This document shows, piece after piece, positions 9,162-34,769 of a stretch of 64,000 bases of DNA. Within the stretch, counting starts at the first letter, position 1, and the number at the start of each line of letters is the position of its first letter. The notes beneath the pieces are model-generated. The model did no database searches, was not told the origin of the DNA, and saw only the letters and a list, made by a program, of their open reading frames with translations. The stretch covers positions 62,001 to 126,000 of the forward strand of contig SUZN01000001.1 in NCBI GenBank assembly GCA_015059905.1, in the 5' to 3' direction. Made by a program: the position numbers and the translations under genes. This stretch comes from Rikenellaceae bacterium (GTDB taxonomy: Bacteria; Bacteroidota; Bacteroidia; Bacteroidales; Rikenellaceae).

Positions 9162-10318
9162 TCTTCTATCTTAAATCTTACGGCAACATCGTCGTAAGCA
9201 AAATATCCTGGTACTGACAGACCGTAGTCGCCATTCATATCCTCCGAGCCTACAAGGTTAAAGGCAACCTTTACAACCTCACCGAGTGATGAGAGGTCCC
9301 ATTTTGTCCACTCGGTAACGAACTTCTTGCCCTTCTCCAAGAGATAGAACTCTGTTGAAGCAATAGGCTCTGCATCCTCGTCAAATGAGTTGTAGCCATA
9401 GGCAACAATCTTATATGTAGATTCGTCGCCCAATACATAAGTAGAACCGAAGCCCGCAGCCTGCAACTGGTTATATACATAGGTGGTGTTTGTAACCCAC
9501 ATATGGTCAATCACTCGTGCCACGCCATCGTCAAACTCAAATGAAGGCATTGTGTTGTTCATGCCGTATGAGGTCTCGTCCACATAGCCAAAGTGAGTGT
9601 TGAAGTTCTCGCCACTGTGTCCGCCTGTTACGTTATATGCCTGAAGGTCATACATATAGTTACCCTCATTCTCCCAATCTGTGCCTACGTAGTTCGATAC
9701 ACCTGCGTGACCTGCAAAGTATCCGAAATCGCCCATCACAGGGGTAAAGACCAACTCGGTGTTACCCTCATCATACCACGAGTATGAGCCGTGACCGTTG
9801 CCATACTGACCATCCGCAGGGATAAAGTCGCTCCAGTAGGTGCTGCCCTCTGAGCCAACATAATCGGCATCCTCGAAAGTAAGCACACGCAGCTCATAAT
9901 CCTTCTTCTTTGGCAGAACGATTACGCGACCATCTGTAAGGGTGATGATAACCTCGTCGTCGGTCTCCTCAATGCTCTCGAAGATAGAGTCGCCATCCTT
10001 GCCGTCCTTGCCATCAGCACCGTCTTTACCGTTGGTACCGTTCTGACCATCTTTGCCGTGGCGCAGTGTAACTTTTGAGCCATCGCTGAAAGTAAGTGTG
10101 TAACCCTCGTCGGTGGACTCAACGCCAGTAATTGTCTTACCGTTGTTCATCGCGTCAATCAATGCCGAAAGGGCTGCGATGTCGGCAGTGTTGTCTGCTA
10201 CCTGATCCTCCAGACCATTAACTTTGTTCCACAAGTCGGAGTCATCATACTCGCAGGCTGTGAACGCTGTTGCAGCCAATGCTGCAACGCAAAAAATAAA
10301 GAACTTTTTCATACGCAT
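9158..10318 (-). CDS. DUF4465 surface lipoprotein with collagen-like segment (possible BtuH-type B12 binder)
   Basis: This 386-residue protein is the first gene after the cobalamin riboswitch. It has a lipoprotein signal (TAFTAC, Cys21), a short heptad-like coiled coil (LWNKVNGLEDQVADNTADI), a small DUF4988-like beta segment, a collagen-like run of Gly-X-Y triplets rich in GKDG (residues about 88-110), and a C-terminal DUF4465 beta-sandwich (from about residue 145, RVLTFEDADYVG). DUF4465 proteins recur in B12-regulated loci. BtuH-type surface lipoproteins of Bacteroides bind cobalamin, and this may be their counterpart, but I cannot confirm the family match. The coiled coil plus collagen-like stalk could trimerise it and hold the binding domain away from the membrane. 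Confidence 0.65.
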   Translation of the reverse strand: MRMKKFFIFCVAALAATAFTACEYDDSDLWNKVNGLEDQVADNTADIAALSALIDAMNNGKTITGVESTDEGYTLTFSDGSKVTLRHGKDGQNGTNGKDGADGKDGKDGDSIFESIEETDDEVIITLTDGRVIVLPKKKDYELRVLTFEDADYVGSEGSTYWSDFIPADGQYGNGHGSYSWYDEGNTELVFTPVMGDFGYFAGHAGVSNYVGTDWENEGNYMYDLQAYNVTGGHSGENFNTHFGYVDETSYGMNNTMPSFEFDDGVARVIDHMWVTNTTYVYNQLQAAGFGSTYVLGDESTYKIVAYGYNSFDEDAEPIASTEFYLLEKGKKFVTEWTKWDLSSLGEVVKVAFNLVGSEDMNGDYGLSVPGYFAYDDVAVRFKIED

Positions 10319-20876: not shown

Positions 20877-22352
20877 ATGTCAAAGAAAATCTCAAGAGCT
20901 GACTTTTTGAAGACCTCTGGTGCAGGTTTGGCAGCTATGACAGTTGTTCCTGGTAACGTAATGGGAGCAGCATTCGGACACAAGGCTCCGTCTGATAAGT
21001 TGAACATTGCCGCTGTAGGTGTTGGTGGTATGGGTAACGCTAATATCAGCAATGTGAAGAAGACAGAGAACATTGTTGCTTTGTGTGATACCGACTGGGG
21101 TTATGCAAAGAACGTTCTCAACGCTTTCCCTAAGGCTAAGAAGTTCTGGGACTGGCGCGAGATGTATGACAAGGCTGCTAACGAGATCGACGCTGTGATC
21201 TGTGCAACTCCTGACCATACACACGCATTGGTTTCTGCTCACGCTATGGAGCTTGGTAAGCACGTTTATTGCCAGAAGCCATTGACTCACTCTGTATATG
21301 AGTCACGTCTTTTGACAAAGCTCGCTGCAAAGAATCAGGTTGCTACATCAATGGGTAACCAGGGTTCATCAGGCGTAGGTGTTGAGACTGTATGTAACTG
21401 GATCTGGAACGGTGAGATTGGTGAGGTAACTCACGTTGACGCTTTCACTGACCGTCCAATCTGGCCACAGGGCTTGATGGTACCAAAGGAGGTTGATCCA
21501 ATTCCAGATACATTGAACTGGGATTTGTTCCTCGGTCCTGCAAAGTATCGTCCATATAACAAGATCTACCAGCCTTGGAACTGGCGTGGTTGGTGGGATT
21601 ATGGTACAGGTGCGTTGGGTGATATGGCTTGCCACATCTTGCACCCTGTATTCAAGGCTCTCGACCTGGGTTATCCAACAGAGGTTCAGGGCTCATCTAC
21701 AGCCCTCTTGACTGACTGCGCTCCACAGGCACAGATGGTTAAGTATAAGTTCCCAGCTCGCGCGAAGAAGTATAAGGCAAAGATGCCAGAGGTAACTGTT
21801 ACTTGGTATGACGGTGGTTTGACTCCTCCACGTCCAGAGGGCTTGGAGCCAGGCAAGAACCTCAACGATTCAGGTGGTGGTGCTATCTTCTACGGTACAA
21901 AGGACATCTTGGTATGCGGTTGCTACGGTGTAAATCCATATTTGGTATCAGGTCGCGTTCCAGAGACTCCAAAGCGTGCGCGCCACGTCGAGCTCTCACA
22001 CGAGATGGATTGGGTACGTGCTTGTAAGGAGTCAAAGGAGAACCGTCAGATGACTAACTCTGACTTCTCTGAGGCAGGTCCATTCAACGAGATGGTTGTT
22101 ATGGGTGTATTGGCTGTTCGTTTGCAGGCTTTGAACAAGGTCTTGAAGTGGGACGGCGAGAACATGAAGTTCACTAACATCTCTCCAGACGAGAAGCTCC
22201 GCATTATGATTGAGGATGGTTTCTCTGTAAACGATGGTCACCCAACATTCAACAAGACATATACAGATCCTATCAACGCATTGGAGTTTGCTAACGAGAT
22301 GATCAAGCATAACTACCGTGCTGGTTGGAAGTTGCCAGATATGCCAAGATAA
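20877..22352 (+). CDS. Exported Gfo/Idh/MocA-family NAD(P)-dependent oxidoreductase
   Basis: This 491-residue oxidoreductase has an N-terminal Rossmann fold (LNIAAVGVGGMGNANISNV, residues about 38-56), the family motif as CQKPLTHS (a variant of EKP), and a C-terminal alpha/beta substrate domain. The leader KKISRADFLKTSGAGLAAMTVV has the layout of a Tat signal (S-R-x-x-F-L-K), but the second Arg is Ala. Exported members of the family oxidise sugars at C3 while holding their cofactor, which fits the DUF1080 partner 28 bp downstream and the tat genes upstream. Codon use is as biased as in gapA and pflB, so the enzyme is probably abundant. Substrate is not evident. Confidence 0.88.
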   Translation: MSKKISRADFLKTSGAGLAAMTVVPGNVMGAAFGHKAPSDKLNIAAVGVGGMGNANISNVKKTENIVALCDTDWGYAKNVLNAFPKAKKFWDWREMYDKAANEIDAVICATPDHTHALVSAHAMELGKHVYCQKPLTHSVYESRLLTKLAAKNQVATSMGNQGSSGVGVETVCNWIWNGEIGEVTHVDAFTDRPIWPQGLMVPKEVDPIPDTLNWDLFLGPAKYRPYNKIYQPWNWRGWWDYGTGALGDMACHILHPVFKALDLGYPTEVQGSSTALLTDCAPQAQMVKYKFPARAKKYKAKMPEVTVTWYDGGLTPPRPEGLEPGKNLNDSGGGAIFYGTKDILVCGCYGVNPYLVSGRVPETPKRARHVELSHEMDWVRACKESKENRQMTNSDFSEAGPFNEMVVMGVLAVRLQALNKVLKWDGENMKFTNISPDEKLRIMIEDGFSVNDGHPTFNKTYTDPINALEFANEMIKHNYRAGWKLPDMPR

Positions 22353-22380
22353 TTAAGTAACACAAATTTAAGTAAATAAG

Positions 22381-23115
22381 ATGAAGAAGATTTTAATGAT
22401 GGCTGCAATGGTTGCTATGCTTGCAGGTTGTGGTACAAAGGAGGAGGATCCTAACACTATCGTATTGTTTGACGGTACCTCTTTGGAGGGCTGGCGTGGT
22501 TACAACAAGGATCACGTTCCATCACGCTGGACTATCGAGGACGGTTGCTTGAAGTTCACTGGTTCAGGTGGCGGTGAGGCACAGACAGGCGAGGGTGGTG
22601 ATATCATCTACGCTGCACAGAAGTTCAAGAACTTCGAGTTGGAGCTCGAGTGGAAGATTTCAAAGGGTGGTAACTCTGGTATCTTCTATCTTGCACAGGA
22701 GACTGCTGGTCCTATCTACATCTCTGCACCTGAGTGCCAGGTGTTGGATAACGAGAACCATCCAGATGCTCGCTTGGGCGTTGATGGTAACCGTATGTCA
22801 TCTTCATTGTATGATATGATTCCAGCTAAGCCACAGAACGCAAAGCCTGCTGGCGAGTGGAACAAGGTTAAGATTCTTTGCTACAAGGGTACAGTTGTTC
22901 ACTATCAGAACGATGTTCCTGTTGTAGAGTATCACTTGTGGACTCCACAGTGGACAGAGATGTTGCAGAAGTCAAAGTTCTCTGAGGAGAAGTGGCCAGA
23001 TGCATTCAAGCTCTTGAACAACTGCGGTGGCGAGAACCACGAGGGTTATATCGGTTTCCAGGATCACGGTGATGATGTATGGTTCCGTAACATCAAGGTT
23101 AAGGTTCTCGAGTAA
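22381..23115 (+). CDS. DUF1080 lipoprotein (3-keto-disaccharide hydrolase family)
   Basis: This 244-residue lipoprotein (lipobox LAGC, Cys17) has a concanavalin-like beta-sandwich: IVLFDGTSLEGWRGYN at the start, FELELEWKISKGGNSGIFYLAQE in the middle, and IGFQDHGDDVWFRNIKVK at the end are hallmark DUF1080 segments. Family members are linked to hydrolysis of 3-keto-glycosides, whose glycosidic bond is labile after C3 oxidation. It follows the Gfo/Idh/MocA gene by 28 bp with the same strong codon bias, suggesting that oxidation and cleavage take place in the periplasm or at the membrane. A strong terminator closes the operon. Confidence 0.88.
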   Translation: MKKILMMAAMVAMLAGCGTKEEDPNTIVLFDGTSLEGWRGYNKDHVPSRWTIEDGCLKFTGSGGGEAQTGEGGDIIYAAQKFKNFELELEWKISKGGNSGIFYLAQETAGPIYISAPECQVLDNENHPDARLGVDGNRMSSSLYDMIPAKPQNAKPAGEWNKVKILCYKGTVVHYQNDVPVVEYHLWTPQWTEMLQKSKFSEEKWPDAFKLLNNCGGENHEGYIGFQDHGDDVWFRNIKVKVLE

Positions 23116-23137
23116 GGGCTGATTAACCAAATTTTTG

Positions 23138-23170
23138 CAGGCTATCCCGCGCGGGGTAGCCTGTTTTTTT
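23138..23170 (+). terminator. Terminator of the Tat/oxidoreductase/DUF1080 cluster
   Basis: CAGGCTATCCC (23138-23148) pairs with GGGGTAGCCTG (23153-23163), one G-T pair, followed by seven T. Confidence 0.9.
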
Positions 23171-23216
23171 GTCTGTTTTAATAATGTTATAATTAGGTTA
23201 ATTCTCTTGCCTCACT

Positions 23217-23246
23217 TTGCCTATTACTCTTTTATTTGTACCTTTG
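23217..23246 (+). promoter_or_regulatory. Promoter of the DedA gene
   Basis: TTG at 23217-23219 and TACCTTTG at 23239-23246, 19 nt apart. This places the transcript start near 23253 and so supports the ATG at 23274. Confidence 0.65.
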
Positions 23247-23273
23247 CGGGCAGAAAAACAAGAAAAGCAGAAT

Positions 23274-23900
23274 ATGGAGTCAGTAGGTTTTATTCAGTGG
23301 TGTCTTGATAATTTGAATTATTGGACCATCACGTTGTTGATGACAATCGAGAGTTCGTTTATCCCCTTTCCTTCGGAGGTCGTTGTGCCACCAGCAGCAT
23401 ATAAGGCGGCTTCAACGGGCGAGTTGAATGTGTGGCTGGTTATATTCTTCTCAACCCTTGGCGCAGAGTTCGGTGCGCTGATAAACTACTCCCTAGCGTT
23501 GTGGTTGGGTAAGCCTATCGTATATAAGTTCGCAAATAGCCGTTTGGGTCATATGTGCCTTATCGACCAGCAGAAGGTGGAGACTGCTGAGGCGTTCTTC
23601 ATCAAGTATGGTGTTGCGGCGACGCTCGTAGGTCGTCTGGTGCCTGCTGTGCGTCAGCTTATATCTATCCCTGCGGGTCTGGCGAAGATGAATCTGGCGA
23701 AGTTTATGCTCTTTACTGCGGTGGGAGCTGGTGCGTGGAACTCTGTTTTGGCGGCTTTAGGCTACTATCTTGAGTCGGTGGTGCCCGAGGATCAGTTGAT
23801 AGCTACCGTTACAGAGTATAGCCACGAGATAGGTCTTGCTATTATAGTTGCGGTGGTGGCTGTCGTGGCGTTCCTTATATATAAGGGCTGGAAGAAGTAG
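23274..23900 (+). CDS. DedA family membrane protein (VTT/SNARE-associated)
   Basis: This membrane protein of about 208 residues has the DedA signature: ESSFIPFPSEVVVPPAAYKA after the first helix, a re-entrant region, GRLVPAVRQLISIPAGLAKM (the conserved R-x-x-P...R...G-x-x-x-M motif) and further helices. DedA proteins flip phospholipids or undecaprenyl phosphate and support membrane and envelope homeostasis. The frame is open 19 codons further upstream, but the promoter box sits inside that stretch, so the ATG at 23274 is the start. Monocistronic, with a long terminator hairpin. Confidence 0.9.
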   Translation: MESVGFIQWCLDNLNYWTITLLMTIESSFIPFPSEVVVPPAAYKAASTGELNVWLVIFFSTLGAEFGALINYSLALWLGKPIVYKFANSRLGHMCLIDQQKVETAEAFFIKYGVAATLVGRLVPAVRQLISIPAGLAKMNLAKFMLFTAVGAGAWNSVLAALGYYLESVVPEDQLIATVTEYSHEIGLAIIVAVVAVVAFLIYKGWKK

Positions 23901-23918
23901 GGTTTGCCTGAAAAGAAA

Positions 23919-23960
23919 ACGATGGGTGCTGAATTATCTCAGCACCCATCGTTGTTTTTG
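23919..23960. terminator. Terminator between convergent DedA and flavodiiron genes
   Basis: ACGATGGGTGCTGA (23919-23932) pairs perfectly with TCAGCACCCATCGT (23939-23952) around a 6-nt loop, followed by TGTTTTTG on the plus strand. It lies between convergent genes and may serve both. Confidence 0.85.
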
Positions 23961-23974
23961 TAATATGGTTTGCT

Positions 23975-25132
23975 TTACTGCGCCATCGCATCTGCCAGAG
24001 CCTCCATTGCTGGGATGTTCTCGGGCTTCATACGTGAACGGATTGTGACCATAGGCTCCACAATCTCGATACTCTTCATCTGCTCCAGCATACCGCGCAT
24101 CACACGACCAGCGCAAGGAGCCCATGAGCCATTCTCAATGATGCCCACGCGGCGCTTCTGGTAGTTCTTGAGCTGAAGGTGGTGCAGGAAGTCATACATC
24201 GGAGGGAATACATCAGCGTCGTAAGACGAAGCGGCAACAACTAAACGGTCATATTTGAAGGCATCTTCGATAGCCTCTGCCATATCATCGCGGCATAGGT
24301 CTGTTGTGCTTACCTTCTCGACACCCTTTGCCCGCAACATCTCGGCAAATGCCTCGGCGGCCTTGGCTGTGCCGCCGTGTATGGATGCGTAGGCGATAAA
24401 GACACCCTTTGCTTCGGGTGAGTAGCTACTCCAAGTATTGTATAATCCGATGTAGTAATCGAGATTCTCACTCAAAATAGGTCCGTGCAGAGGACATATC
24501 TGCGCGATGTCGAGCGTAGCAGCCTTCTTCAGCAGCGCCTGTACCTGCTGACCATACTTGCCGCAGATGTTGAAGTAGTAACGTCGTGCTTCACACGCCC
24601 ACTCCTCATCGTGGCTCAATGCACCGAACTTACCAAATCCATCGGCAGAGAAGAGTATCTTCTCGCTCTGCTCGTATGTCACCATCACCTCGGGCCAATG
24701 TACCATTGGAGCCATAAAGAATTGCAGTGTATGGCTACCAAGCGAGAGTGTGTCGCCCTCCTTCACAGCTATCGTGCGAGAGTCAAATTCAGCCTCGTGG
24801 AAGAATTGTGGCAACATCTGTATCGCGCGCGCCGAGGCTACAATCTGCATCGTGGGATACTTCTCGGCAATGAGCTGAATACTGCCTGCGTGGTCAGGCT
24901 CCATATGCTGCACGATGAGATAGTTAGGGGTACGACCCTGCAACGTCTCATCAACAAGCGCAAGCCACTCCTCGCTCTTACGGCTATCGACACTATCCAT
25001 AATGGCTATCTTCTCATCCTCGATAAGGTAGGAGTTGTATGAGATGCCGTTTGGGATAATATATTGGCTTTCAAAAAGATCAAGATCGGTGTCATCTACA
25101 CCTATGTACTTGATTGACTCTGTGATTTTCAT
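23975..25132 (-). CDS. fprA: Flavodiiron protein (FprA/ROO family)
   Basis: This protein of about 385 residues reduces O2 to water or NO to N2O and protects anaerobes. The N-terminal metallo-beta-lactamase domain holds the di-iron ligands in HMEPDHAG (H-x-E-x-D-H) and further His residues (MVHWPEVMV, CPLHGP). The C-terminal flavodoxin domain begins FIAYASIHGGTAKAAE, the FMN phosphate loop. No extra rubredoxin or flavin reductase domain is fused, so it is a class A enzyme that needs a separate rubredoxin. The frame is open for 46 more codons upstream, but that part is hydrophobic, unlike the family, and includes the likely promoter. Confidence 0.93.
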   Translation of the reverse strand: MKITESIKYIGVDDTDLDLFESQYIIPNGISYNSYLIEDEKIAIMDSVDSRKSEEWLALVDETLQGRTPNYLIVQHMEPDHAGSIQLIAEKYPTMQIVASARAIQMLPQFFHEAEFDSRTIAVKEGDTLSLGSHTLQFFMAPMVHWPEVMVTYEQSEKILFSADGFGKFGALSHDEEWACEARRYYFNICGKYGQQVQALLKKAATLDIAQICPLHGPILSENLDYYIGLYNTWSSYSPEAKGVFIAYASIHGGTAKAAEAFAEMLRAKGVEKVSTTDLCRDDMAEAIEDAFKYDRLVVAASSYDADVFPPMYDFLHHLQLKNYQKRRVGIIENGSWAPCAGRVMRGMLEQMKSIEIVEPMVTIRSRMKPENIPAMEALADAMAQ

Positions 25133-25263
25133 ATTTTTGGCAGTAATAAGTGTTAAAAAATCAAATCCGATATTAAAACGAAATATCTGTTGTAATATTA
25201 CGTTCGCAATCAACACGTAAAGATAGTGAAAAATGTGTGATGTGCAAAATATGATTTTTTTGA

Positions 25264-25295
25264 GTTGCAACGATACGGTAAAATCGTTATCTTTG
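25264..25295 (+). promoter_or_regulatory. Promoter of the DUF1810 gene
   Basis: TTG at 25264-25266 and TATCTTTG at 25288-25295 with 21 nt between. It overlaps the apparent N-terminal extension of the frame and supports the ATG at 25334. Confidence 0.6.
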
Positions 25296-25333
25296 TAGAG
25301 TCGGGATTAGGCTTAAGGCTAAAATCAAAAGAG

Positions 25334-25792
25334 ATGTTATTGGAAACAGATATAAATCGTTTCGTGGAGGCACACGAAGCTCCATACTACGGCAGCTATG
25401 GTCACGCTCTGCGCGAGATTCAGGCGGGCAGAAAGCAGACGCATTGGATATGGTACATCTTTCCGCAATTGAGAGCGTTGGGGCGTAGCACAACGGCCAT
25501 TTATTACGGAATAGCGGATTTGGATGAGGCGCAGCGCCTGCTTCAGCATCCGTTGCTCGGTGAGCGTCTGCGTGAGATTTCGGCAGCTCTGCTGGAGCAT
25601 AGCGGTAAGACGGCGCGCCAGATTTTGGGTGATATTGATAGTTTGAAGGTACGCTCGTGTATGACGCTATTTGACTATCTTGAGCCCGAGGGTGTGTTTT
25701 GTAAGGTGCTTGAGGCGTTCTATGGTGGCGAGCGTGATGTGCTTACTCTTAACGAGATAGAGAAATATAAACATAAAACGGACGAGTTATGA
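25334..25792 (+). CDS. DUF1810 family protein
   Basis: This protein of about 152 residues opens INRFVEAHEAPYYGSYGHALREIQAGRKQTHWIWYIFPQL, which matches DUF1810 closely: a small, helical soluble family related to the NADAR/YbiA-like neighbourhood of uncharacterised proteins. No catalytic role is established. Its stop overlaps the next start by 4 bp (ATGA), coupling it to the FtsZ C-terminal-like protein. I know of no function for the pair. Confidence 0.8.
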   Translation: MLLETDINRFVEAHEAPYYGSYGHALREIQAGRKQTHWIWYIFPQLRALGRSTTAIYYGIADLDEAQRLLQHPLLGERLREISAALLEHSGKTARQILGDIDSLKVRSCMTLFDYLEPEGVFCKVLEAFYGGERDVLTLNEIEKYKHKTDEL

Positions 25793-26187
25793 TTTTAACG
25801 GAGATTGAAAAGATTGATAGCCTGGTAGAAGAGGTGTTGGGCTATGAGAGTTGCTTCATAAGGGTCGATCGTAATGACTACGAGGCTGTGAAGAGGGGTT
25901 CTGCTACGCTGAAGGCGGTGAGCATCAGAGGTCGAAGTGTTGATAAGCCGTTGCTGGCAAAACTTGATGCGGAGCTTGAGCAAGCGGGCAGAGCAGATGT
26001 AGGCAGAATATTTCTTTCGATAGGCTGCTCATCGGTTGATGACGTGAGCTATGACGATGCAATGTCGGTGCTGAAGGTCATCGAGAAGGGTAGCGAGCAC
26101 CCTAACCTCGTCTGGGGCATCGGCGAAGACGCAACGTGCAACGCAAATGAGGTAAGAATAACCCTCGTCCTCGGCTATGATAAATAG
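25789..26187 (+). CDS. Small protein resembling a solitary FtsZ C-terminal domain
   Basis: In this 132-residue soluble protein the region from about residue 50 follows the FtsZ/tubulin C-terminal pattern: a KPLLAKLDAELEQAG helix, VGRIFLSIG strand, VDDVSYDDAMSVLKVIEK helix, NLVWGIGEDATCN and VRITLVLGYD. There is no GTP-binding domain and no conserved C-terminal peptide. Residues 1-48 form a short helix and strands without clear match. It overlaps DUF1810 by 4 bp. It might bind FtsZ or be a repurposed domain. The homology is judged by eye only. Confidence 0.5.
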   Translation: MILTEIEKIDSLVEEVLGYESCFIRVDRNDYEAVKRGSATLKAVSIRGRSVDKPLLAKLDAELEQAGRADVGRIFLSIGCSSVDDVSYDDAMSVLKVIEKGSEHPNLVWGIGEDATCNANEVRITLVLGYDK

Positions 26188-26298
26188 ACCTTAACGGTAA
26201 AATAATAGAAAAACGAGGTGTAGTATATTCACAATCAATCCTATGATGTAGGAAGTGTAACCTCTGCTTGCATTTTGAAGTTTTTATATACTTTGTTT

Positions 26299-26323
26299 GG
26301 GCACCTGTGAGGGTGTCTTTTTT
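26299..26323 (+). terminator. Terminator after the DUF1810 pair
   Basis: GGCACC (about 26300-26305) pairs with GGTGTC around a short loop, followed by six T. The stem is short. Confidence 0.55.
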
Positions 26324-26396
26324 ATCTCTATAGTCTATGCTTTTGTCGTAATGGGATTTTATTTGCTCAAAAAGTACCAAAATGAAATAAAATAGT

Positions 26397-26404
26397 TATT
26401 TTTG
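26397..26404 (+). promoter_or_regulatory. Possible -7 box of the channel/sigma/RyR operon
   Basis: TATTTTTG lies 53 nt before the channel ATG. No TTG sits at the expected distance upstream, so the operon may rely on another sigma factor, possibly its own. Confidence 0.35.
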
Positions 26405-26456
26405 TATGTTACTATAAGTCTTTTTTGGGGTAATAATTTGTAATAAATAGATCACA

Positions 26457-29114
26457 ATGAATTTTGAACAGATTGAGGGTATAATGAGAAAGATGGATTA
26501 TCCAGCAATGGGTGTGGGTATTCTTGCAATTATATCAAACTTTGTCATTTCGTATGATTCTGTAATAGGTAAAATCATCAATATTTCCTTGTGCTTGATT
26601 GCTACCGTGTTGGCAGTATGTTACATTGCCTATGCTTTGTATCTTTATTTTGGCAGAAGGGTGGATTTTGATAGACACCTGATTCATGGACATTTTGCGC
26701 GTAAGGTGTGCTGTGTGGTGTTGCTGATACCCTCTCTGCTGACTACCATATCGTTGTTATTTACTTTTTCTCCCAAAGAGTTGTCATATGAGGAGGTGTT
26801 ATATCAATGCGGGGACAAGGAACTGCCCTGTGAGATAAAATCAGCCCAGCAGAGTCCTAATATATTTTGGAGTGTCTATTATCACTTCGTTGATCCAGGA
26901 AACCAGCATATGACAACAACAAAAGCTGGGCGAGTGTGGGCGGCAGTAATTGCGATACTTGGTGTATTTCTGCTCAACGGTCTGCTTGTGTCTTCCATAA
27001 TAGGATGGATAGATCTGAGGAAAGAAAAGTGGTTAAGTGGCGAAGTGAGGTATAAACCTCGTGATTTAGGAGAAAATCGATTTGCTGTAGTGATTGGAGC
27101 TAATGAAATCGCCGCATCCGTAATAAAAAATCTGTTTACACCCAAGAAGGCAGGTGAGATAAACTACAAGTGCGAAGGTAATAATCAGTATGTTGTTCTA
27201 CAAACAAGCCGAAAAGTGGAGGAGGTAAGAACGGAGCTGGCCTCGCATTTAAATAGCGATTTGTTGAAGAGAGTTGTGATATATAAGGCGTTGAGAGATT
27301 CTGCTGAGGAAATAGATAAATTATATCTTAAAGACTCTACCGAGTTATATGTATTAGGAGAATCGACATTGATAGATGGAGGCGAAACATACCATGATGC
27401 AATGAATATGCGTTGCGTGAACCTGATTGCCAAGGATCTGGAAAAGACAAGAAACAGTCGCGAAGAGAGTAAAGAAATAACGGGTATCTCGGTTAGAAAG
27501 GTCTGCAAGGTAATGTTCGAATATCAGACAACATCTTCGATATTCCAGTTCTCAGATATTTCCGAGGATATTAAGAATAACATAGTATTCATCCCTTTCA
27601 ATCGATATGAATCGTGGGCGAGGGCGGTGATTGCTGATAGCAACGCTGTTGAGGATTGCAATGTTGAGAATGGTGAAACAATAAAGTACACTCCATTTGA
27701 TGGCGAGAACGGGATAAAAGATGATGATCCAACGCACGTTCATTTTGTTGTTGTAGGAATGTCGAAAATGGGTGTGGCAATGGGCGTTCAGGCGATGTTG
27801 CAGGCACATTATATGAATTACGCAGCAGCTGAAATGGTCAAGAGTGAGCAGCAATGCGAACATTTGAAGAATGAGAGAAGAACACGCATAACTTTTATTG
27901 ATACAAATGCCGATAAGGAGATGGCATTTTTTAAGGGCAGATATGATAATTTGTTTAGTCTGACACGTTATCGCTATCTTGATGCTACAACGTGCGATGA
28001 GATAGATTTGATGCCAACTTCGGCGGTTGGATGGGCTGACCCGATGGATACAAGTGCGGGCATGTGGGAGCACTTGAGTGATGGAGGCGAGAATTTCATA
28101 GATATTGAGATAGAGTTTATTAAGGGCGAGATTGAGTCGGAGGGTGTGCGAAGATATCTGCGAAATATTTCTAATATGTCAAATGGTTGGGTTAAGACAT
28201 CTAATCTTACTATAGCTGTATGCCTATCGCGTACGCACCAAGCTATTGCTGCAAGTTTGTATATGCCTATAAGTGTGTATGAAAAGGCGCAAGAGGTCTG
28301 GGTTTATCAGCGTGAGTCGGCGGATATAGTTTTAAACCTTGTCAGAACTAGCCAAAATGATAAGCGTTATAAGAAACTGAAGCCATTTGGTATGCTTTAT
28401 AGTGAGTATATGAACGATAGAAGCCAGTATCTGAAGGCGCTGCTTGTTAATGGCGCATATGACCTGGATGGAAAAATCAATGGGAAGACTGTAAAAGCAG
28501 CTGATTTCCGTGATATGTCAAATAAGGATACCTATCGTGATTTGAATGAGACTTGGAAAGATTTGTCAATAGATAAAAAATTCTCCAATAGGTATTTTGT
28601 GGATTCTATTCCTCTCAAGACAAGGTATATTAAGGCTGTGGGCTTGTCAGAAAAGAATCTTGAGGATAATAACAATCCCCATACGAAAGCTTTAGCAATA
28701 AGTGAGCACAACCGTTGGAATGTGCAACAGTTGTTGTTGGGCTATTCCCCTTGTAATAAGGAGCAGGATGCGATATTTGAGAAATTAAATGCAGCGTGTA
28801 AAGCCGACAAAACAAATTATAAGGCTTGGCAGGAGAAAGTTGGATGGGGGGCGATGTCGCCCAAGCAAAGGATGGATGCAAAGAAGCAAAATGCTGAATA
28901 CAAGACCTTGGCAAAAGGAAAGTTTGATGCGGAAAAAGCAGCATATAAGGAGGGCGCAGATAGAATTCATCCAAATATTTGCGAATATAGCCATTTGGAT
29001 AAGGTTGATAGCGATGCGAAAGGATATGATTTTTATTTGAATAGTATCCTGCCGACAATTAAGGTTTTGATTGACGATAAGGTGGCGTCAGCCCCAGTAA
29101 ATGACAATAAATAA
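26457..29114 (+). CDS. CASTOR/POLLUX-like ion channel with tandem RCK (TrkA-N) domains and C-terminal RyR domain
   Basis: This is an 885-residue membrane protein. Four hydrophobic segments lie at about residues 16-32, 42-65, 83-103 and 158-183. Between the last two is a pore-like loop with FVDPGNQ (about 144-150), similar to the DxGN filter of plant CASTOR/POLLUX/DMI1 channels. Two Rossmann units follow: RFAVVIGANEIAASVI (about 208-223) and HFVVVGMSKMGVAMG (about 429-443), as in RCK gating rings. The C-terminal part has SEHNRW (about 749-754), then after a charged helical insert IHPNICEYSHLD (about 837-848), the core of a RyR domain. It should gate ion flow in response to a nucleotide-type ligand. 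The stop overlaps the sigma-factor start by one base. Ion and ligand are unknown. Confidence 0.75.
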   Translation: MNFEQIEGIMRKMDYPAMGVGILAIISNFVISYDSVIGKIINISLCLIATVLAVCYIAYALYLYFGRRVDFDRHLIHGHFARKVCCVVLLIPSLLTTISLLFTFSPKELSYEEVLYQCGDKELPCEIKSAQQSPNIFWSVYYHFVDPGNQHMTTTKAGRVWAAVIAILGVFLLNGLLVSSIIGWIDLRKEKWLSGEVRYKPRDLGENRFAVVIGANEIAASVIKNLFTPKKAGEINYKCEGNNQYVVLQTSRKVEEVRTELASHLNSDLLKRVVIYKALRDSAEEIDKLYLKDSTELYVLGESTLIDGGETYHDAMNMRCVNLIAKDLEKTRNSREESKEITGISVRKVCKVMFEYQTTSSIFQFSDISEDIKNNIVFIPFNRYESWARAVIADSNAVEDCNVENGETIKYTPFDGENGIKDDDPTHVHFVVVGMSKMGVAMGVQAMLQAHYMNYAAAEMVKSEQQCEHLKNERRTRITFIDTNADKEMAFFKGRYDNLFSLTRYRYLDATTCDEIDLMPTSAVGWADPMDTSAGMWEHLSDGGENFIDIEIEFIKGEIESEGVRRYLRNISNMSNGWVKTSNLTIAVCLSRTHQAIAASLYMPISVYEKAQEVWVYQRESADIVLNLVRTSQNDKRYKKLKPFGMLYSEYMNDRSQYLKALLVNGAYDLDGKINGKTVKAADFRDMSNKDTYRDLNETWKDLSIDKKFSNRYFVDSIPLKTRYIKAVGLSEKNLEDNNNPHTKALAISEHNRWNVQQLLLGYSPCNKEQDAIFEKLNAACKADKTNYKAWQEKVGWGAMSPKQRMDAKKQNAEYKTLAKGKFDAEKAAYKEGADRIHPNICEYSHLDKVDSDAKGYDFYLNSILPTIKVLIDDKVASAPVNDNK

Positions 29115-29683
29115 TGACCGACAAGCAAATAATAGATGGCCTGATAGCCAGGGATGAGCAGGTGACGCAGCAGTTTTTTTTCTGTCGTTGTCGCCCGCTG
29201 TTCTTGAGCATTATCCGCTATGTTTTCTCTTATGAGGTCGATTATGACGAGTTTGTCAATGAATTTTATATCTACTTGATGGAGAACGACGCCCACCGAC
29301 TGCGACAGTTTGAGGGGCGCAGTTCGATATATCAGTGGATGAAGATTGTCGCAATACGTTATTTCATTGCAAAGCGCGACAATGTGATAGATACAAGTTC
29401 AAAAGGAGCTCTTTCAGGAAGCATTGAGCGTCGTGGCGCGGAGTTGAACGAAGGCAGAATTGTGGCGAAGATGGATGTTGAATACCTTTTCAGTCGAGTG
29501 ACCAATGAGCGCTATCTGTATGTGATACGGCGACTTCTGCTGGATGATGCTGAGCCGCAAAAGGTAGCTGAGGAACTCAATACCAATGTGGATAATTTAT
29601 ACAATATAAAGAAACGAGCTGTTGCGGCATTGACCGCCATAGCGCTTAACGAGGCGGAGAGATATGAAAAAAAGATCGGTTGA
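29114..29683 (+). CDS. ECF-like RNA polymerase sigma factor
   Basis: This 189-residue protein has a region 2 (about residues 20-85: LFLSIIRYVFSYEVDYDEFVNEFYIYL then SSIYQWMKIVAIRYFI) and a helix-turn-helix region 4 (about 140-180: VIRRLLLDDAEPQKVAEELN then NVDNLYNIKKRAVAAL). The spacing is that of an ECF sigma factor, though sequence is divergent. A FFFCRC patch near residue 22 is odd and may sense redox state or metal. It starts on the last base of the channel gene and overlaps the next gene by 20 bp, so all three are translationally coupled. The next protein starts like an anti-sigma factor. Targets may include its own operon. Confidence 0.8.
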   Translation: MTDKQIIDGLIARDEQVTQQFFFCRCRPLFLSIIRYVFSYEVDYDEFVNEFYIYLMENDAHRLRQFEGRSSIYQWMKIVAIRYFIAKRDNVIDTSSKGALSGSIERRGAELNEGRIVAKMDVEYLFSRVTNERYLYVIRRLLLDDAEPQKVAEELNTNVDNLYNIKKRAVAALTAIALNEAERYEKKIG

Positions 29684-30818
29684 TAACACTATCTCGGCGG
29701 AGGTGTTGGCGGCGTTCCTGGATGGAAATGCCACCGCGCAGGAGAGTCAGACGATAATCGACGCAATGTCCAACGATGCCTATTTGAGAGAGGTAATGCG
29801 TATCTCTCAAGCGGTGGATGCTGAGCTCGGAGCGCTCTCATCGGATATTGAGCTATTGCCGATGGCTGCTATGGCTGCCACTTGCGAGGAGGGCAACCTT
29901 TGTGCACTTGAGTGTGAAGAATATCTGCTGAAGCGTTTTGGCGTGGAGTGTAACAGAGAGCAAATGCTGAAAAAGGCGATGCAAAATGGTTGGCAGAAAG
30001 ATGGCGGCACAGCACTGCATAATGTTGGACGTCACGCCGAGAGTTATGGCATGATAGCTACGCGCCAATATAAATGTACGGTGGCGGATATTGTCTCTGC
30101 ACTGAGTGCAGGAGAGGGCGTTATCGTGGCAGTGGATGGTGGTGAGTTGTTGGGTGATAGGGTAACAGAGATGAGGGAAGATTTGTTTGTTGGGCAGATC
30201 CCCGACCATACTATCGTCGTTCTGCGATGCGATGAGGAGCAGGGAACAATTACGGTGTATGATCCCAACTCTTGTTGTGAGGAGGATACCTATCCGATGA
30301 GGCAGTTTGAGAATGCCTGGAATGATTCGAAAAATTATTTAGTAACTATAACCTTAAAAGAGAAGAAAACTTATGTTCCAAAGCCGATAGATTTGTCGGA
30401 TGTTGAATTGTCAGAAGATTTGAATGAGTTGCGTGAAGCAATCGCCGAAAATGCACACGAGGTATGGGCGGAGGGTCGCCAGAAGGAGGGATGGACATAT
30501 GGTCCTCGACGCGATGATGTGTTGAAGCAGACTCCCGATATGGTAGCATATTCGCAGCTTACAGATAGCGAGAAGAAGTATGACCGCAATATGGCAATGA
30601 ATACGCTGAAGCTCGTTAAGAAACTCGGCTACGACCTCGTCAAGCGCGAGGAGACAGAGCTTTACAAGGAGTTGATTGAGCAGTTGCGTAGTGCAAAGGT
30701 TGATGTTTTATGTCCTTGTTGTTTATCAAGGGGTATAAAAACTCCAGTCCTGCATCACGATATTTTCTGCCGCGAGTGCGGTCATAAGTTGAATATTGAT
30801 TGGTCGCTTCACGAATGA
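29664..30818 (+). CDS. Anti-sigma-like/C39-like cysteine peptidase/RyR/zinc-ribbon fusion protein
   Basis: This 384-residue protein has no membrane segment. Residues 8-55 (ISAEVLAAFLDGNATAQESQ) look like a zinc-free anti-sigma domain. Residues 75-230 follow the C39-like peptidase plan: Cys80 in CALECEEYLLKRFG aligns with the CGPASL-type catalytic loop, His182 in PDHTIVVL and Asp200 in TITVYDPN complete a possible triad, though the usual upstream Gln is not seen. Residues about 248-328 are a textbook RyR domain (NAHEVWAEGRQKEGWTYGP, VAYSQLTDSEKKYDRN). The end is a zinc ribbon (CPCC at 350-353, CREC at 369-372). It probably binds the overlapping sigma factor and senses a ligand. Whether the peptidase is active is unknown. 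Confidence 0.75.
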   Translation: MKKRSVDNTISAEVLAAFLDGNATAQESQTIIDAMSNDAYLREVMRISQAVDAELGALSSDIELLPMAAMAATCEEGNLCALECEEYLLKRFGVECNREQMLKKAMQNGWQKDGGTALHNVGRHAESYGMIATRQYKCTVADIVSALSAGEGVIVAVDGGELLGDRVTEMREDLFVGQIPDHTIVVLRCDEEQGTITVYDPNSCCEEDTYPMRQFENAWNDSKNYLVTITLKEKKTYVPKPIDLSDVELSEDLNELREAIAENAHEVWAEGRQKEGWTYGPRRDDVLKQTPDMVAYSQLTDSEKKYDRNMAMNTLKLVKKLGYDLVKREETELYKELIEQLRSAKVDVLCPCCLSRGIKTPVLHHDIFCRECGHKLNIDWSLHE

Positions 30819-31061
30819 AGTTAGTGGTCCATCGGTAGTATATTATACGAGAAGTTGACATTGCAAGGTGCTATCGACAAGGTCTTTCTGTGCTAAATTC
30901 ATTCTGGCTGATTACTGTCGAAAAGAGAGTGGGCGCTCTTTACATATGGCATAATCGCAAGTATGTGCTTGCCTTTATATATTGTTTATTTACAAAGAAA
31001 TATTTGTTTTTCAGGCTTGCATGCTTGGAAATTACTTTTGTTATACAAAATTAAGCGAAAT
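30819..31061. other. Intergenic region after the RyR operon
   Basis: These 243 bp hold no open frame of note and no recognisable element. The base composition is more A/T-rich than the genes. A terminator hairpin follows. Confidence 0.5.
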
Positions 31062-31105
31062 GGAGTTGCCTTTCAAAAACTTGTTAGGTAACTCTATTTT
31101 TTTTG
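31062..31105 (+). terminator. Terminator between the RyR operon and ubiX
   Basis: GAGTTGCCT (31063-31071) pairs with AGGTAACTC (31086-31094), one mismatch, followed by eight T. Confidence 0.75.
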
Positions 31106-31116
31106 AATTATCCTTC

Positions 31117-31665
31117 CTACTCTCCCCACTCAAAATGTGGCAGGGTGATGCCTGCGTGGGCGATGATGCGCTCCACGACGGTGAGGGCTGCCTCGTCGAT
31201 TGTCTGTGGATGCGAATAGAACGAGGGCGAGGCGGGGAGGATGATGGCTCCAGCCTCGGTCAGCGTGGTCATATTACGCAGGTGGATAAGCGAGTAGGGC
31301 GCCTCACGCACAACCACAATCAGTCGGCGGCGCTCCTTGAGCATCACATCGGCGGCACGCTCAATAAGCGAGAGCGATACGCCTGCCGCTATGCGACCTA
31401 CGCTACCCATTGAGGCGGGCACGATAATCATCGCATCATAGCCTGCCGAGCCGCTTGCTACGGCAGAGAACATATCGTCGTTTGGGTGCTGCACAATCTT
31501 CTCGCTCTGCGGCAGCGTGATACCTTCGTGGGCAAGCACCCTAGTGGCAGTGTCGCTAATGATAAGCGCAATCTGCTCCACCTCGTGCGCCGCGAGCAGT
31601 TGCTCCAGACACAGACGTGCATACAAGCCTCCGCTGGCTCCTGTTATGGCAACGATAATCTTCAT
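31117..31665 (-). CDS. ubiX: UbiX-family flavin prenyltransferase
   Basis: This 182-residue protein makes prenylated FMN, the cofactor of UbiD-type decarboxylases. The N-terminal VAITGASGGLYARLCLEQL is the FMN/phosphate loop, and IIVPASMGSVGRIAAGVS plus LVVVREAPYSLIHLRNM are hallmark segments (R-x-x-P and the RE motif). No ubiD gene adjoins it. The start overlaps the stop of the upstream deacetylase by one base (TAATG), so the two are coupled although no functional link is evident. Confidence 0.92.
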   Translation of the reverse strand: MKIIVAITGASGGLYARLCLEQLLAAHEVEQIALIISDTATRVLAHEGITLPQSEKIVQHPNDDMFSAVASGSAGYDAMIIVPASMGSVGRIAAGVSLSLIERAADVMLKERRRLIVVVREAPYSLIHLRNMTTLTEAGAIILPASPSFYSHPQTIDEAALTVVERIIAHAGITLPHFEWGE

Positions 31666-32270
31666 TATAACTCGATGATTTTACACTTCAGCCCCAGCTC
31701 CTTCACACGCTCAAGCACCTTGGGCAGGGCATAACTCATATTTCGGAATGTCTTTTGGCTATCGTGGAAGGCTATGATGGCTCCAGGACAGATGTGAGGC
31801 ACAACCTCGCGCACACACTTCTCGGGTGTGATGTGGGCGTAGTCGCGCGAAAGGATGTTCCACATAATCACCTTGTGCCGCTTCGCTACGGCGCGTATCT
31901 GCGACGGCGTGGTCTGTGCATAGGGCGGGCGAAAGAGGTCGGTGTGGAGAATATCATCGGCAAAATCAACATCCTCGATATACTTCTCCAGCGGCATTCC
32001 CCATCCCTTCTGGTGGGAGTAGGTGTGGTTGCCAATCTTATGTCCTTCGTCGGTGATACGCTGCATAAGGTCGGGATACATCTCTGCGTTCTTGCCGAGC
32101 ACAAAGAATGTCGCCTTGGCATCGTACTGTTTCAGCGTGGAGAGTATCCACTCGGTGATGCCAGGCGTAGGACCGTCGTCAAAGGTTAGAAAGACTCCGT
32201 TAGGGTCGTCAATCTCCCAAATCATATCGGGGAATATGTTGCGTATAAAGCCCCAGGGTCTAATTTTCAT
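31665..32270 (-). CDS. Polysaccharide deacetylase (NodB/CE4 family)
   Basis: This protein of about 201 residues has the NodB motifs: TFDDGPTPG (catalytic Asp and metal-binding Asp), GNHTYSH (His metal ligands) and DLFRPPYAQ. The later IAFHDSQKT motif supplies the C-terminal His. CE4 enzymes remove N- or O-acetyl groups from peptidoglycan or other glycans. I see no clear signal peptide: the ATG at 32270 begins MKIRPWGFIRNIFPDMIWEI. The frame extends 19 codons upstream, but that part is unlike the family. It is coupled to ubiX by a one-base overlap. Confidence 0.88.
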   Translation of the reverse strand: MKIRPWGFIRNIFPDMIWEIDDPNGVFLTFDDGPTPGITEWILSTLKQYDAKATFFVLGKNAEMYPDLMQRITDEGHKIGNHTYSHQKGWGMPLEKYIEDVDFADDILHTDLFRPPYAQTTPSQIRAVAKRHKVIMWNILSRDYAHITPEKCVREVVPHICPGAIIAFHDSQKTFRNMSYALPKVLERVKELGLKCKIIEL

Positions 32271-32342
32271 CAGCGCAAAATATTTCGTAGAATAAAGCTG
32301 CCTACAAATGTAATGCTTTTTGTGCAATTACAGGTATTTATT

Positions 32343-32372
32343 TTGCAATAACTCCATTTTTGAGTATATTTG
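32343..32372 (+). promoter_or_regulatory. Promoter of the DUF4837 gene
   Basis: TTG at 32343-32345 and TATATTTG at 32365-32372, 19 nt apart, with the ATG 25 nt downstream. Confidence 0.65.
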
Positions 32373-32396
32373 TAGATAATTTAACAAACTTGTGAT

Positions 32397-33449
32397 ATGA
32401 AAAGAGTGATGATGACGTTGCTCCCCGCGCTTGTGGCGATGTTTCTGCTGGGGGGATGTAAGGCGATAGGCGACCTCCAGTCGGCGGATAATGCTTCGGG
32501 CTCTCCTTATGAGCTGGTGTTGGTGTGTGCGCAGCCAGAGTGGCAGAGTGAGCTGGGAGATACGTTGCAGTCGGTGTTGAAGCAGCCAGTGAAGGAGCTT
32601 ATGCAGTATGAGCCTGTGTATGATGTGATGCGTATCCTGCCCAATAACTTCAAGAGCCTGACACGCACCCACCGCAATGTGGTTGTGGTGAATGTCAATC
32701 CCGAGATAGCCGAGCCAGGCATCACTGTGCAGTATAATGTGACCTCGAAGCCACAGATTTACATTACGTTGAAGGGTCCCGACACGCAGAGCCTTGCCAA
32801 ATATGTGAGCGACAACCGCGATAACATCCTCTATGTGTTGGAGAAGGCAGAGCGTGACCGCACGATTGCCTATGCAACGAAATATTTTTCAGCCCCTCTG
32901 CGTGAAAAGATTGTCGAAAAATTCGGAATGGATTTGGCTGTGCCAAACAACTATCAGGTGCGCTCGGAGTCAGACGATATGTTGTGGGTGTCGCAGGAGT
33001 TCCCAACGGCAAGTCAGGGCTTCTTCATCTATAAATACCCCTATGAGGGCAAGCAGTCGCTCACTCGTGAGGCATTGGTGAAGGCGCGTAATAAGTTTGC
33101 TTCGCGCATCCCAGGACCACGCGAGGGTTCGTATATGATTACGACAAATAAGATTGTGGATGATACGGGCGAGGATTATATGCCCTATATGCCCGAATAT
33201 CTCCAGCTGCTCATCGGCGACCGTATGTGGGTTGAGATGTATGGTTTGTGGGAGGTTGAGAACTACTTTATGGGTGGTCCTTTCGTAAGTTACACAACGG
33301 TGAATAAGGCTACAAATGAGGTTGTTACCATCGATTGTTATGTCTATTATCCAACCCTCTACAACAAAGACCCCGAGAAGCGAAACAAGTTGCGCGCATT
33401 GCAACATCTGGTATATCTTGCCGATTTCCCTGCTGCAAAGGCGAAGTAG
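32397..33449 (+). CDS. DUF4837 family lipoprotein
   Basis: This 350-residue lipoprotein has a clear lipobox (LLGGC, Cys21). It begins PYELVLVCAQPEWQSELGDTL after a linker and matches DUF4837, a family restricted to Bacteroidetes with no known function. The architecture looks like two related alpha/beta halves: VVVVNVNPE at about 95, and a second half that starts near YQVRSESDDMLWVSQEF (about 187). It is monocistronic, between a divergent deacetylase and a convergent cardiolipin synthase. Envelope location is likely. Confidence 0.85.
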   Translation: MKRVMMTLLPALVAMFLLGGCKAIGDLQSADNASGSPYELVLVCAQPEWQSELGDTLQSVLKQPVKELMQYEPVYDVMRILPNNFKSLTRTHRNVVVVNVNPEIAEPGITVQYNVTSKPQIYITLKGPDTQSLAKYVSDNRDNILYVLEKAERDRTIAYATKYFSAPLREKIVEKFGMDLAVPNNYQVRSESDDMLWVSQEFPTASQGFFIYKYPYEGKQSLTREALVKARNKFASRIPGPREGSYMITTNKIVDDTGEDYMPYMPEYLQLLIGDRMWVEMYGLWEVENYFMGGPFVSYTTVNKATNEVVTIDCYVYYPTLYNKDPEKRNKLRALQHLVYLADFPAAKAK

Positions 33450-33464
33450 AGGCAGAGAGTGTGG

Positions 33465-34769
33465 TTAAAGGAGCGGTGCAATAAGTTGTGCTGCTCCTTC
33501 TTTTATGCGCCCGAGGAAGGAAGAGCGCAGGTCACGGGGTGCTACGGCTGTGGAGTGTGCGACATCCTGCATAAATTGCTCCGTATAGTGACGTGCAAGC
33601 CCTTTGTTATAGACCACTGCGGCGGCTTCGAGGTTGTAGCGCAGGCTGCGGTAATCCATATTCGCAGAGCCTATGATGCTCGTTGAGTCGTCGATGATGA
33701 TAACCTTCGAATGTAAAAAACCATCCCTGTAACGAAATAACTTCACACCACTTGCCACCGCGCGGCGCAGTGAGGGCATAGAGCCGCAGTCAATCAGTGC
33801 GATGTCGCTACGCGAGGGGATAATCAGCGTCACCTCCACGCCACTTTGTGCTGCTGAGCAGATGCTGTCAAGCAGCGACGCGGGCGGCAGAAAGTAGGGT
33901 GTTGAGATGCGTATAGAGTGCCGCGCCGAAGAAAATGCCTCCTGAAAGATGTATTGCAGCGCAACCGAAGGCGATTGTTGCGAAGGGTAGATAAACTGCA
34001 TCGGACAGAGTGATGCAGTTGTTCGGCGGCGGAAACTATCTTTTAACGTTGGTGCGATTTGTCTTATCGCCTTTTGTGCCGCTTCGCCCTCGATGCGGAT
34101 GTGGTCGTCACGCCAATATCCGAGCCTTCCTTCTCCCAGATAACGTGATGCGATATTTATCCCGCCTACATATAGTATCTCCCTGTCAATTAGTACTATC
34201 TTGCGGTGATTGCGACGGTGAAGGTCGGGACTAAGATATGGAAAGCGGGGCGGACCGAAGCGTTGAAGCTCTATACCGCTCTGCTTCAGTGTGTTGATGC
34301 TCTTTTTTGAGAGTCGCCACGAACCCACCGCATCGTATATGATTTTGACCTTCACGCCCGACCGCGCCCGACGGCAGAGAAGAGCAAGGATTGTAGAGCC
34401 GATATGGTCATCATCGATTATGTAAAACTCAAAAATTATCTCACGTCGGGCTTGTTGCAGGTCGCGGATTAAGGACGTATATGTCTGTTCGGCATTGTGC
34501 AGAGCCGTGATGTGGTTGCGTGTGGTGAGTTCGCCTAAAGCGAGCGTTGCTATGGAGCGTTGCAGGCGGTTGTAGTGTGGCGCGTGCGAGCACCTTGGCG
34601 AGAATGTTGTGCGGCAGCGTGTGAGCCACAGCGCCAGCGTTGAGATGGGAGGCGCAATAATCATCGCTAAAGACCACGCCCATGCCGAAGCGGGTGAAAA
34701 TGAGCCGCGAAGCACATATATTATGCCCACGATGCTCCACAAGGTATGTAAAATGGTGTATAGTGTCAT
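33465..34769 (-). CDS. cls: Cardiolipin synthase (phospholipase D family)
   Basis: This protein of about 434 residues has two N-terminal membrane helices followed by two PLD catalytic domains. The HKD motifs are HRKIVLID (with GGIN downstream) and HSKVIIID (with GSANMD downstream). It joins phosphatidylglycerol molecules to give cardiolipin in the inner membrane. The ATG at 34769 (MTLYTILHTLWS) fits the family; an in-frame ATG 16 codons earlier would overlap the greA promoter region on the opposite strand. Length is slightly short of the 480-residue norm because the linker between helices is brief. Confidence 0.92.
   Translation of the reverse strand: MTLYTILHTLWSIVGIIYVLRGSFSPASAWAWSLAMIIAPPISTLALWLTRCRTTFSPRCSHAPHYNRLQRSIATLALGELTTRNHITALHNAEQTYTSLIRDLQQARREIIFEFYIIDDDHIGSTILALLCRRARSGVKVKIIYDAVGSWRLSKKSINTLKQSGIELQRFGPPRFPYLSPDLHRRNHRKIVLIDREILYVGGINIASRYLGEGRLGYWRDDHIRIEGEAAQKAIRQIAPTLKDSFRRRTTASLCPMQFIYPSQQSPSVALQYIFQEAFSSARHSIRISTPYFLPPASLLDSICSAAQSGVEVTLIIPSRSDIALIDCGSMPSLRRAVASGVKLFRYRDGFLHSKVIIIDDSTSIIGSANMDYRSLRYNLEAAAVVYNKGLARHYTEQFMQDVAHSTAVAPRDLRSSFLGRIKEGAAQLIAPLL
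33466..33507 (+). terminator. Terminator of DUF4837, inside the end of the convergent gene
   Basis: AAGGAGC (33468-33474) and GCTCCTT (33492-33498) form an interrupted stem followed by CTTTTAT. It overlaps the last codons of the convergent cardiolipin synthase gene, an economical but unusual arrangement. Confidence 0.45.

Follow-up and report, generated by a model that had tools for sequence, protein, structure and literature searches.

We analysed a window of 64,000 nucleotides from a Rikenellaceae bacterium (GenBank assembly GCA_015059905.1, contig SUZN01000001.1, positions 62,001 to 126,000 of the forward strand) and focused on three of its genes, here called P1, P2 and P3. P2 encodes an extracytoplasmic function (ECF)-type sigma factor, P3 a predicted sigma inhibitor with a C39-like and a ryanodine receptor-type (RyR) domain, and P1 a predicted membrane protein with an RCK ring and a divergent RyR-like tail. 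Across related genomes RyR domains are linked to TIR domains. We propose, with a probability of about 0.5, that the locus is a nucleotide-signal switch in which the RyR domains of P3 and P1 sense the same TIR-made messenger derived from nicotinamide adenine dinucleotide (NAD), probably a cyclic ADP-ribose. Since RyR is linked to TIR and is fused both to a predicted sigma inhibitor and to a predicted channel, these findings are most simply combined by assuming that a single messenger would free the sigma factor and gate the channel. The first-pass annotation had already suggested one ligand for channel and transcription; no other reading fits better, and a class of candidate ligands can now be named.

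The three genes lie on the plus strand and overlap by 1 bp and 20 bp, as described in that annotation. Their features are as follows (aa, amino acids).

26457..29114, plus strand: P1, predicted RCK-type ion channel with a C-terminal RyR-like domain (885 aa)
26457..27035, plus strand: P1 residues 1-193, predicted transmembrane helices and pore, assigned from model and sequence without a topology program (helices 3-30, 36-66, 80-102, 156-173 and 176-193)
26892..26912, plus strand: P1 residues 146-152, DPGNQHM, filter-like motif (alignment of 88 sequences)
27072..28628, plus strand: P1 residues 206-724, predicted tandem RCK gating-ring fold
28689..29051, plus strand: P1 residues 745-865, divergent RyR-like domain with an insertion (invariant residues in 88 sequences; bridging relatives match PF02026)
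29114..29683, plus strand: P2, ECF-type sigma factor (189 aa; TIGR02937)
29664..30818, plus strand: P3, predicted anti-sigma domain, C39-like domain, RyR domain and zinc-ribbon-like tail (384 aa)
29664..29828, plus strand: P3 residues 1-55, predicted three-helix N-terminal domain, putative sigma-binding (anti-sigma) module (helices 12-19, 25-35 and 39-54; predicted local distance difference test score about 70-78)
29859..29879, plus strand: P3 residues 66-72, conserved linker PMxxxAA, candidate cleavage or plug segment
29886..30365, plus strand: P3 residues 75-234, predicted C39-like cysteine-peptidase fold (C80/H182/D200)
30372..30638, plus strand: P3 residues 237-325, RyR domain, PF02026 (H265, W268, T290, D307)
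30711..30779, plus strand: P3 residues 350-372, CxxC...CxxC zinc-ribbon-like tail

P2 and P3 form the core of the system. A scan of GTDB genomes with the first two domains of P3 yielded 74 loci, and a P2-like sigma gene lies upstream of P3 in all 74 of them. The match extends to the C39-like domain in 61 loci and covers the N-terminal domain only in 13, where a short open reading frame (ORF; 67-143 aa in those with an assigned start) directly follows the P2-like sigma gene in every case. The N-terminal domain is the constant companion of the sigma gene and is therefore called an anti-sigma domain here, although no family model matches it. The pairing supports it as a sigma partner domain, in agreement with the earlier suggestion that the third protein holds the sigma factor. 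The C39-like and RyR parts of P3 look like additions to this domain. Some loci depart from the standard form. P3 is split into pieces in L109 and L111, and P2 of L111 is a piece of 80 aa. A second P3-like ORF of L077 (218 aa) does not stand directly behind a sigma gene, and in genome G669 (L154), from a sample of the order, P2 is separated by two genes from a P3-like gene, the match to which does not include the N-terminal domain. Genomes G751, G105 and G198 were also matched and lie outside the inspected set.

Further counts were made on 64 loci, consisting of the window, four genome stretches and 59 of the 74 scan loci after removal of five duplicates, and on 45 loci left after dereplication on P3 at 80% identity. 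L071 and L099, which have P2, an RyR-bearing P3, a channel-type match and TIR, count among the 74 and lie outside these two sets. With longest-ORF starts, the gap between P2 and P3 ranges from -65 to +29 bp in the 64 loci. An operon was defined as a same-strand run with gaps of at most 250 bp, and operon genes were then clustered.

P2 matches the sigma70-ECF profile TIGR02937 at 2.7e-7 with 30.4 bits, under the curated cut-off of 42.9. The same profile matches all 48 aligned members (P2 and 47 relatives, of 63 listed) at E ≤ 0.001, and P2 is therefore taken as an ECF-type sigma factor, which bears out its first assignment. The RyR domain of P3 matches PF02026 at 3.2e-31 with 107.9 bits against a cut-off of 27.4. 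A solved structure of a bacterial RyR domain was released in 2010. Excerpts of a 2026 preprint describe a phage RyR-domain enzyme, RyDEP, that cleaves 2'cADPR and 3'cADPR (cyclic ADP-ribose isomers); six of eight tested homologues bind 2'cADPR/3'cADPR, and residues H75, W78, H100 and D117 hold the cyclic ADP-ribose (PMC13232231). H265, W268, T290 and D307 of P3 are spaced like these residues. Position 290 varies among the 70 aligned P3 sequences (T 30, H 19, N 6, D 6, P 1, gap 8). The C39-like domain has a predicted papain-like C39 fold with a conserved Cys-His-Asp triad and is counted as a member of this fold, as a putative peptidase. In the same alignment the linker is conserved at P66 (67 sequences), M67 (58), A71 (65) and A72 (65), and the four cysteines of the tail are present in 30/31, 29/29, 29/31 and 31/31 of the rows that have a residue there.

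Structures were predicted for whole P1 and whole P3, and the fold comparison of P1 effectively covers residues up to 724. P1 resembles plant DMI1/CASTOR/POLLUX and bacterial GsuK in its predicted membrane helices, its predicted tandem RCK ring and a filter-like D-x-G-N-x-H motif; it differs in having a C-terminal RyR-like domain, identity in the aligned part is 9-11%, and its conductance is a prediction. The filter of CASTOR reads AD265S(A)GNHA (PMC6697748), and the DPGNQH of P1 is conserved among 88 aligned sequences at D 84, P 84, G 87, N 82, Q 84 and H 80. Slo1 channels gave the top Foldseek rows (E 2.4e-7), but with a TM-score of only 0.25 and a root-mean-square deviation of 19.8, and the VIA re-alignment was used instead. 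A potassium channel was rejected because no TVGYG-like filter was seen by eye.

The RyR-like character of the P1 tail depends on conserved residues and on relatives. E750, H751, R753, W754, H838 and D858 are invariant in 88/88 aligned sequences, so that the His, Trp, His and Asp of the RyR ligand pocket (H751, W754, H838 and D858) are kept throughout the family. They were mapped to RyDEP by spacing; an insertion precedes H838, and the distance from H838 to the Asp is 20 residues as against 17. Four relatives bridge the two families, since they match the P1 profile and also carry PF02026 at their C-termini: L142 (4e-54 and 1.4e-8, respectively), L148 (3e-71 and 1.6e-4), L136 (3e-131 and 0.0023) and L144 (1e-118 and 0.0061). 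L142 is the sole one above the PF02026 cut-off, with 35.3 bits, and L129 gave no PF02026 match. Chance resemblance of the tail to RyR was rejected because of the 88/88 conservation and the bridging Pfam matches. Another P1 homologue, P0219, has an extra canonical RyR domain fused at its C-terminus.

The link to TIR, the strongest clue, goes beyond the first-pass annotation. Pfam identifies the representatives of three operon gene clusters as TIR proteins, and one of these combines a SIR2-like part with TIR. By a TIR profile seeded from operon loci, TIR genes stand inside the operon in 27 of 64 loci (18 of 45 after dereplication). P3 carries RyR in 26 of these 27 operons, and in the remaining one, L089, P3 is cut by the contig end. 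TIR was present in 26/50 operons with an RyR-bearing P3 versus 0/13 with an RyR-less P3 (rough p 0.0004), and after dereplication in 17/33 versus 0/10 (rough p 0.003); L089 was left out of both tests and the incomplete L111 out of the dereplicated one. TIR density is 86.6 per Mb in the operons versus 24.2 per Mb in the rest of the loci. A Pfam search of 101 genomes, which is independent of the profiles built here, found TIR in 22/25 genomes with RyR versus 17/76 without (rough p 6e-9). In the same genomes a TIR gene lies within 10 kb of 11 of 31 RyR loci, versus 0.73 expected under random placement. Among 85 aligned TIR domains, 81 of the 83 that have the column keep a conserved glutamate, which we take to be the TIR catalytic residue. 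PADLOC matched 8 of 10 neighbouring or own-genome TIR proteins to defence models, in the TIR part only. A role in phage defence, which the first-pass annotation suggested, is plausible.

Gene order, domain composition, conserved residues, the near-constant pairing of P2 with P3 and the linkage of RyR to TIR are observed; folds and membrane topology are predicted, and the ligand, the hold of P3 on P2, cleavage, conductance and a purpose against phages are inferred. These parts could work together as follows. The N-terminal domain of P3 would hold P2. Binding of the ligand to the RyR domain of P3 would activate the adjoining C39-like domain, which might cut the PMxxxAA linker of its own chain, or the clasp might unfold; in either case P2 would be freed for transcription. 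The same ligand on the RyR-like domain of P1 would gate a CASTOR/GsuK-like cation pore. Lone RyR genes of about 100 aa in sister operons may bind or degrade the messenger and thereby damp the response. A bolder version, which we regard as doubtful, holds that TIR-made cyclic ADP-ribose opens a CASTOR-like calcium channel via RyR and simultaneously sets off an anti-sigma protease that bears RyR and cuts itself, so that ion flux and an immune transcription programme would be coupled; it would be a prokaryotic counterpart, and a possible source, of the animal cyclic ADP-ribose-RyR calcium pathway.

Several results weigh against the proposed switch. The earlier placement of RyR-like domains in both the first and the third protein holds, for P3 by PF02026 and for P1 as a divergent domain; P1 itself has no PF02026 match. 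The RyR profile built in this analysis matched four of nine proteins given, P1 not among them, and a profile-profile comparison of the P1 tail with the RyR of P3 by hhalign gave a probability of 0.1. The ligand of P3 may differ from that of RyDEP because T290 stands in place of H100. Anti-sigma Pfam models gave no match to the P3 N-terminus. A count of gapped dyads in the 300 bp upstream of 35 operons reached 5 at best, versus 3-5 in eight shuffles. The p values above are rough because loci and genomes are related, many assemblies are incomplete metagenome assemblies, and the RyR-less P3 proteins are mostly distant relatives. L153, an RyR-less P3 relative outside the 64-locus set, has a TIR neighbour. 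Furthermore, 24 of the 50 operons with an RyR-bearing P3 have no TIR gene, and none was found within 10 kb of the window locus, so that TIR genes in other parts of the genome would have to supply the messenger.

The last two points also favour a metabolic sensor, which we consider a tentative alternative. Here the RyR ligand would be a metabolite, either an adenine nucleotide or of the NAD(H) type (ATP, ADP or ADP-ribose), instead of an immune signal, and the genes would form a stress or energy-status regulon for cation flux and transcription. The structure matches include human RyR3 repeat domains solved with ATP, ADP and AMP-PCP, and solved RCK relatives (GsuK, TrkA) contain ADP, NAD or ATP. 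The strong RyR-TIR linkage, both genome-scale and physical, and the TIR genes inside 27 of the 64 operons argue instead for a TIR-made messenger.

The genome that contains the window has seven TIR matches in 2.25 Mb, five of them at 202.6-217.0 kb of contig C1. This stretch also holds genes for M48-type and PrsW-type peptidases, and a lone RyR gene lies at 221.8 kb near the contig end. L045 (G000:C1:212000-222793) comprises consecutive TIR genes, a gene for a PrsW-like membrane protease and the lone RyR gene. In L044 (G000:C1:190000-209000), at 8839-9629 (C1:198.8-199.6 kb), an N-terminal P1 fragment and a C-terminal P3 fragment are adjacent, with M48 and TIR genes following them and no sigma gene seen between the fragments; this suggests a degenerate copy of the cassette or an error of assembly. 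It is a speculation that the sigma factor of the window serves the TIR cluster of C1 in trans, and the search for a common promoter gave none.

P1 is a frequent partner of P2-P3. It lies directly upstream of P2 in 18 of 64 loci, or 10 of 45 after dereplication. The idea that the three genes are conserved together therefore stands for P2-P3 and fails for P1, and a fixed three-gene system was rejected because P1 is adjacent in these 18 loci only and also occurs away from P2-P3. Among 393 genomes sampled from the order Bacteroidales, 22 have a P1 relative (threshold E 1e-20), and in three of these (the genome of the window, G763 and G817) it lies beside P2-P3. Away from P2-P3, P1 relatives are found beside a TIR gene or a lone RyR gene. 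L141 (G028:C8:74000-92000) has P1, TIR, an RCK-RyR protein of the c8 type and a lone RyR gene in one run without a sigma factor. The G+C content of P1 is 0.406, that of P2 0.453, that of P3 0.477 and that of the window 0.487, which hints at a separate acquisition of P1.

It is conceivable, but unlikely, that P2-P3 are the sole functional unit and that P1 is an optional neighbour with its own ligand, so that a common RyR domain would not mean common control. The limited adjacency of P1, its occurrence without P2-P3 and its lower G+C content fit this explanation. However, where P1 is adjacent, it overlaps or nearly touches P2 in all 18 cases (-77 to +4 bp with longest-ORF starts). Another family of membrane proteins, c8, also combines RCK-like and RyR parts; its genes lie directly before P2 in three other loci and elsewhere in further operons. 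P1 keeps all four ligand residues. Altogether P1-type or c8-type genes are present in 19 of 45 operons, counted above a floor of 350 aa that leaves out the lone RyR genes of L039 and L072 (its second one). It is very unlikely that the RyR of P3 is an off-switch that hydrolyses or soaks up the messenger while the sigma factor makes more of it as feedback: RyDEP is, in the excerpts, a glycosidase with a His-Asp dyad of which P3 keeps both residues, H265 and D307, but a sensing role agrees better with fusion to a putative anti-sigma/peptidase protein, 8 of 45 operons contain lone RyR genes that are candidates for the off-switch, and six of eight RyDEP homologues bound the signals without degrading them (PMC13232231).

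The proposed TIR-RyR switch shares features with several known systems. With RyDEP it has in common the PF02026 domain and three (P3) or four (P1) ligand residues, which are spaced identically or nearly so; RyDEP is a free-standing protein that inactivates host signals, whereas here RyR is fused to predicted host response proteins (PMC13232231, excerpts). The type III CRISPR system Calp, with the Lon-SAVED protease CalpL, the anti-sigma factor CalpT and the sigma factor CalpS, is by analogy the closest established case of a pathway from messenger through protease and anti-sigma to sigma factor; excerpts of PMC12751052 describe how a nucleotide second messenger leads through the protease to cutting of the anti-sigma factor and release of the sigma factor. 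Our locus differs in having an RyR sensor instead of SAVED, a C39-like fold within the putative anti-sigma chain, an accompanying gene for a predicted RCK-RyR channel and, in sister loci, also TIR genes. Profile searches found neither SAVED nor Lon in P1-P3, which sets the locus apart from Calp; CRISPR arrays and Cas genes were not searched for. In Thoeris (TIR protein ThsB with ThsA), TIR enzymes likewise make cyclic ADP-ribose signals, which are recognised by phage RyR domains (PMC13232231, excerpts). Here a sigma factor and an ion channel would serve as outputs, and the window locus has no TIR gene; profile searches of P1-P3 for SIR2, SLOG and Macro also gave none, and the locus is not a Thoeris locus by these features. 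Oomycete PKDRR proteins are cation channels fused to RyR domains as well, but they are eukaryotic, of the PKD type and have two RyR domains (PMC7399828, excerpts). The EACC2 conflict systems combine a caspase peptidase and an ECF sigma factor in one cluster; their peptidase and sensor are different, and a text search of the accessible part of PMC8195603 did not find 'RyR'. No PADLOC model covers the P1-P2-P3 trio.

The first-pass annotation knew of no described system of this composition. This agrees with the open-licence literature, which leaves subscription papers mostly outside: among the matches listed, no paper describes RyR together with a sigma factor or an RCK channel, or within TIR operons of bacteria. 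The accessible part of PMC7016017 gives no role for bacterial RyR, and the term is absent from PMC7824862 and PMC7159879. The arrangement is new, its parts are known, and the prediction is testable. If the prediction is right, the bacterial RyR domain, for which no cellular role in bacteria was found in the literature searched, would gain a job as receptor for TIR-made signals, and the outputs of TIR signalling would extend to gene activation and a gated ion channel. Small soluble bacterial proteins would also allow a direct test of an old question, namely whether the repeat domain mediates the action of cyclic ADP-ribose on ryanodine receptors.

Other observations concern the surroundings of the locus and its relatives. 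An Rfam scan of 22000-34000 and a tRNA scan of the window gave no matches. PrsW is an anti-sigma protease in Bacillus, and genes for PrsW-type intramembrane proteases occur in the P2-P3 operons of eight loci (L077, L078, L079, L081, L083, L100, L103 and L118). An AAA ATPase protein, c4, is found in nine P2-P3 loci (L082, L085, L086, L087, L092, L095, L097, L103 and L106); it often precedes a Sel1-like protein, in Prevotellaceae-type genomes. RyR-less P2-P3 cassettes head other operons (L043/L110, L042/L107 and L108), and that of L043 apparently contains Hsp70-like and GTPase-like genes, as judged by eye. Outside the order, many genomes of genus g100 in family f59 have ORFs of about 900 aa with two tandem RyR matches and a different architecture. 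A search of viral_contigs with P3 as a single-sequence query gave no match. Plasmid and phage collections contain only partial matches to P3 and P1, with none to P1 in plasmids. The phage-labelled contig MT836850.1 (8.5 kb, from human faeces) has a P1-like stretch that adjoins an RyR domain.

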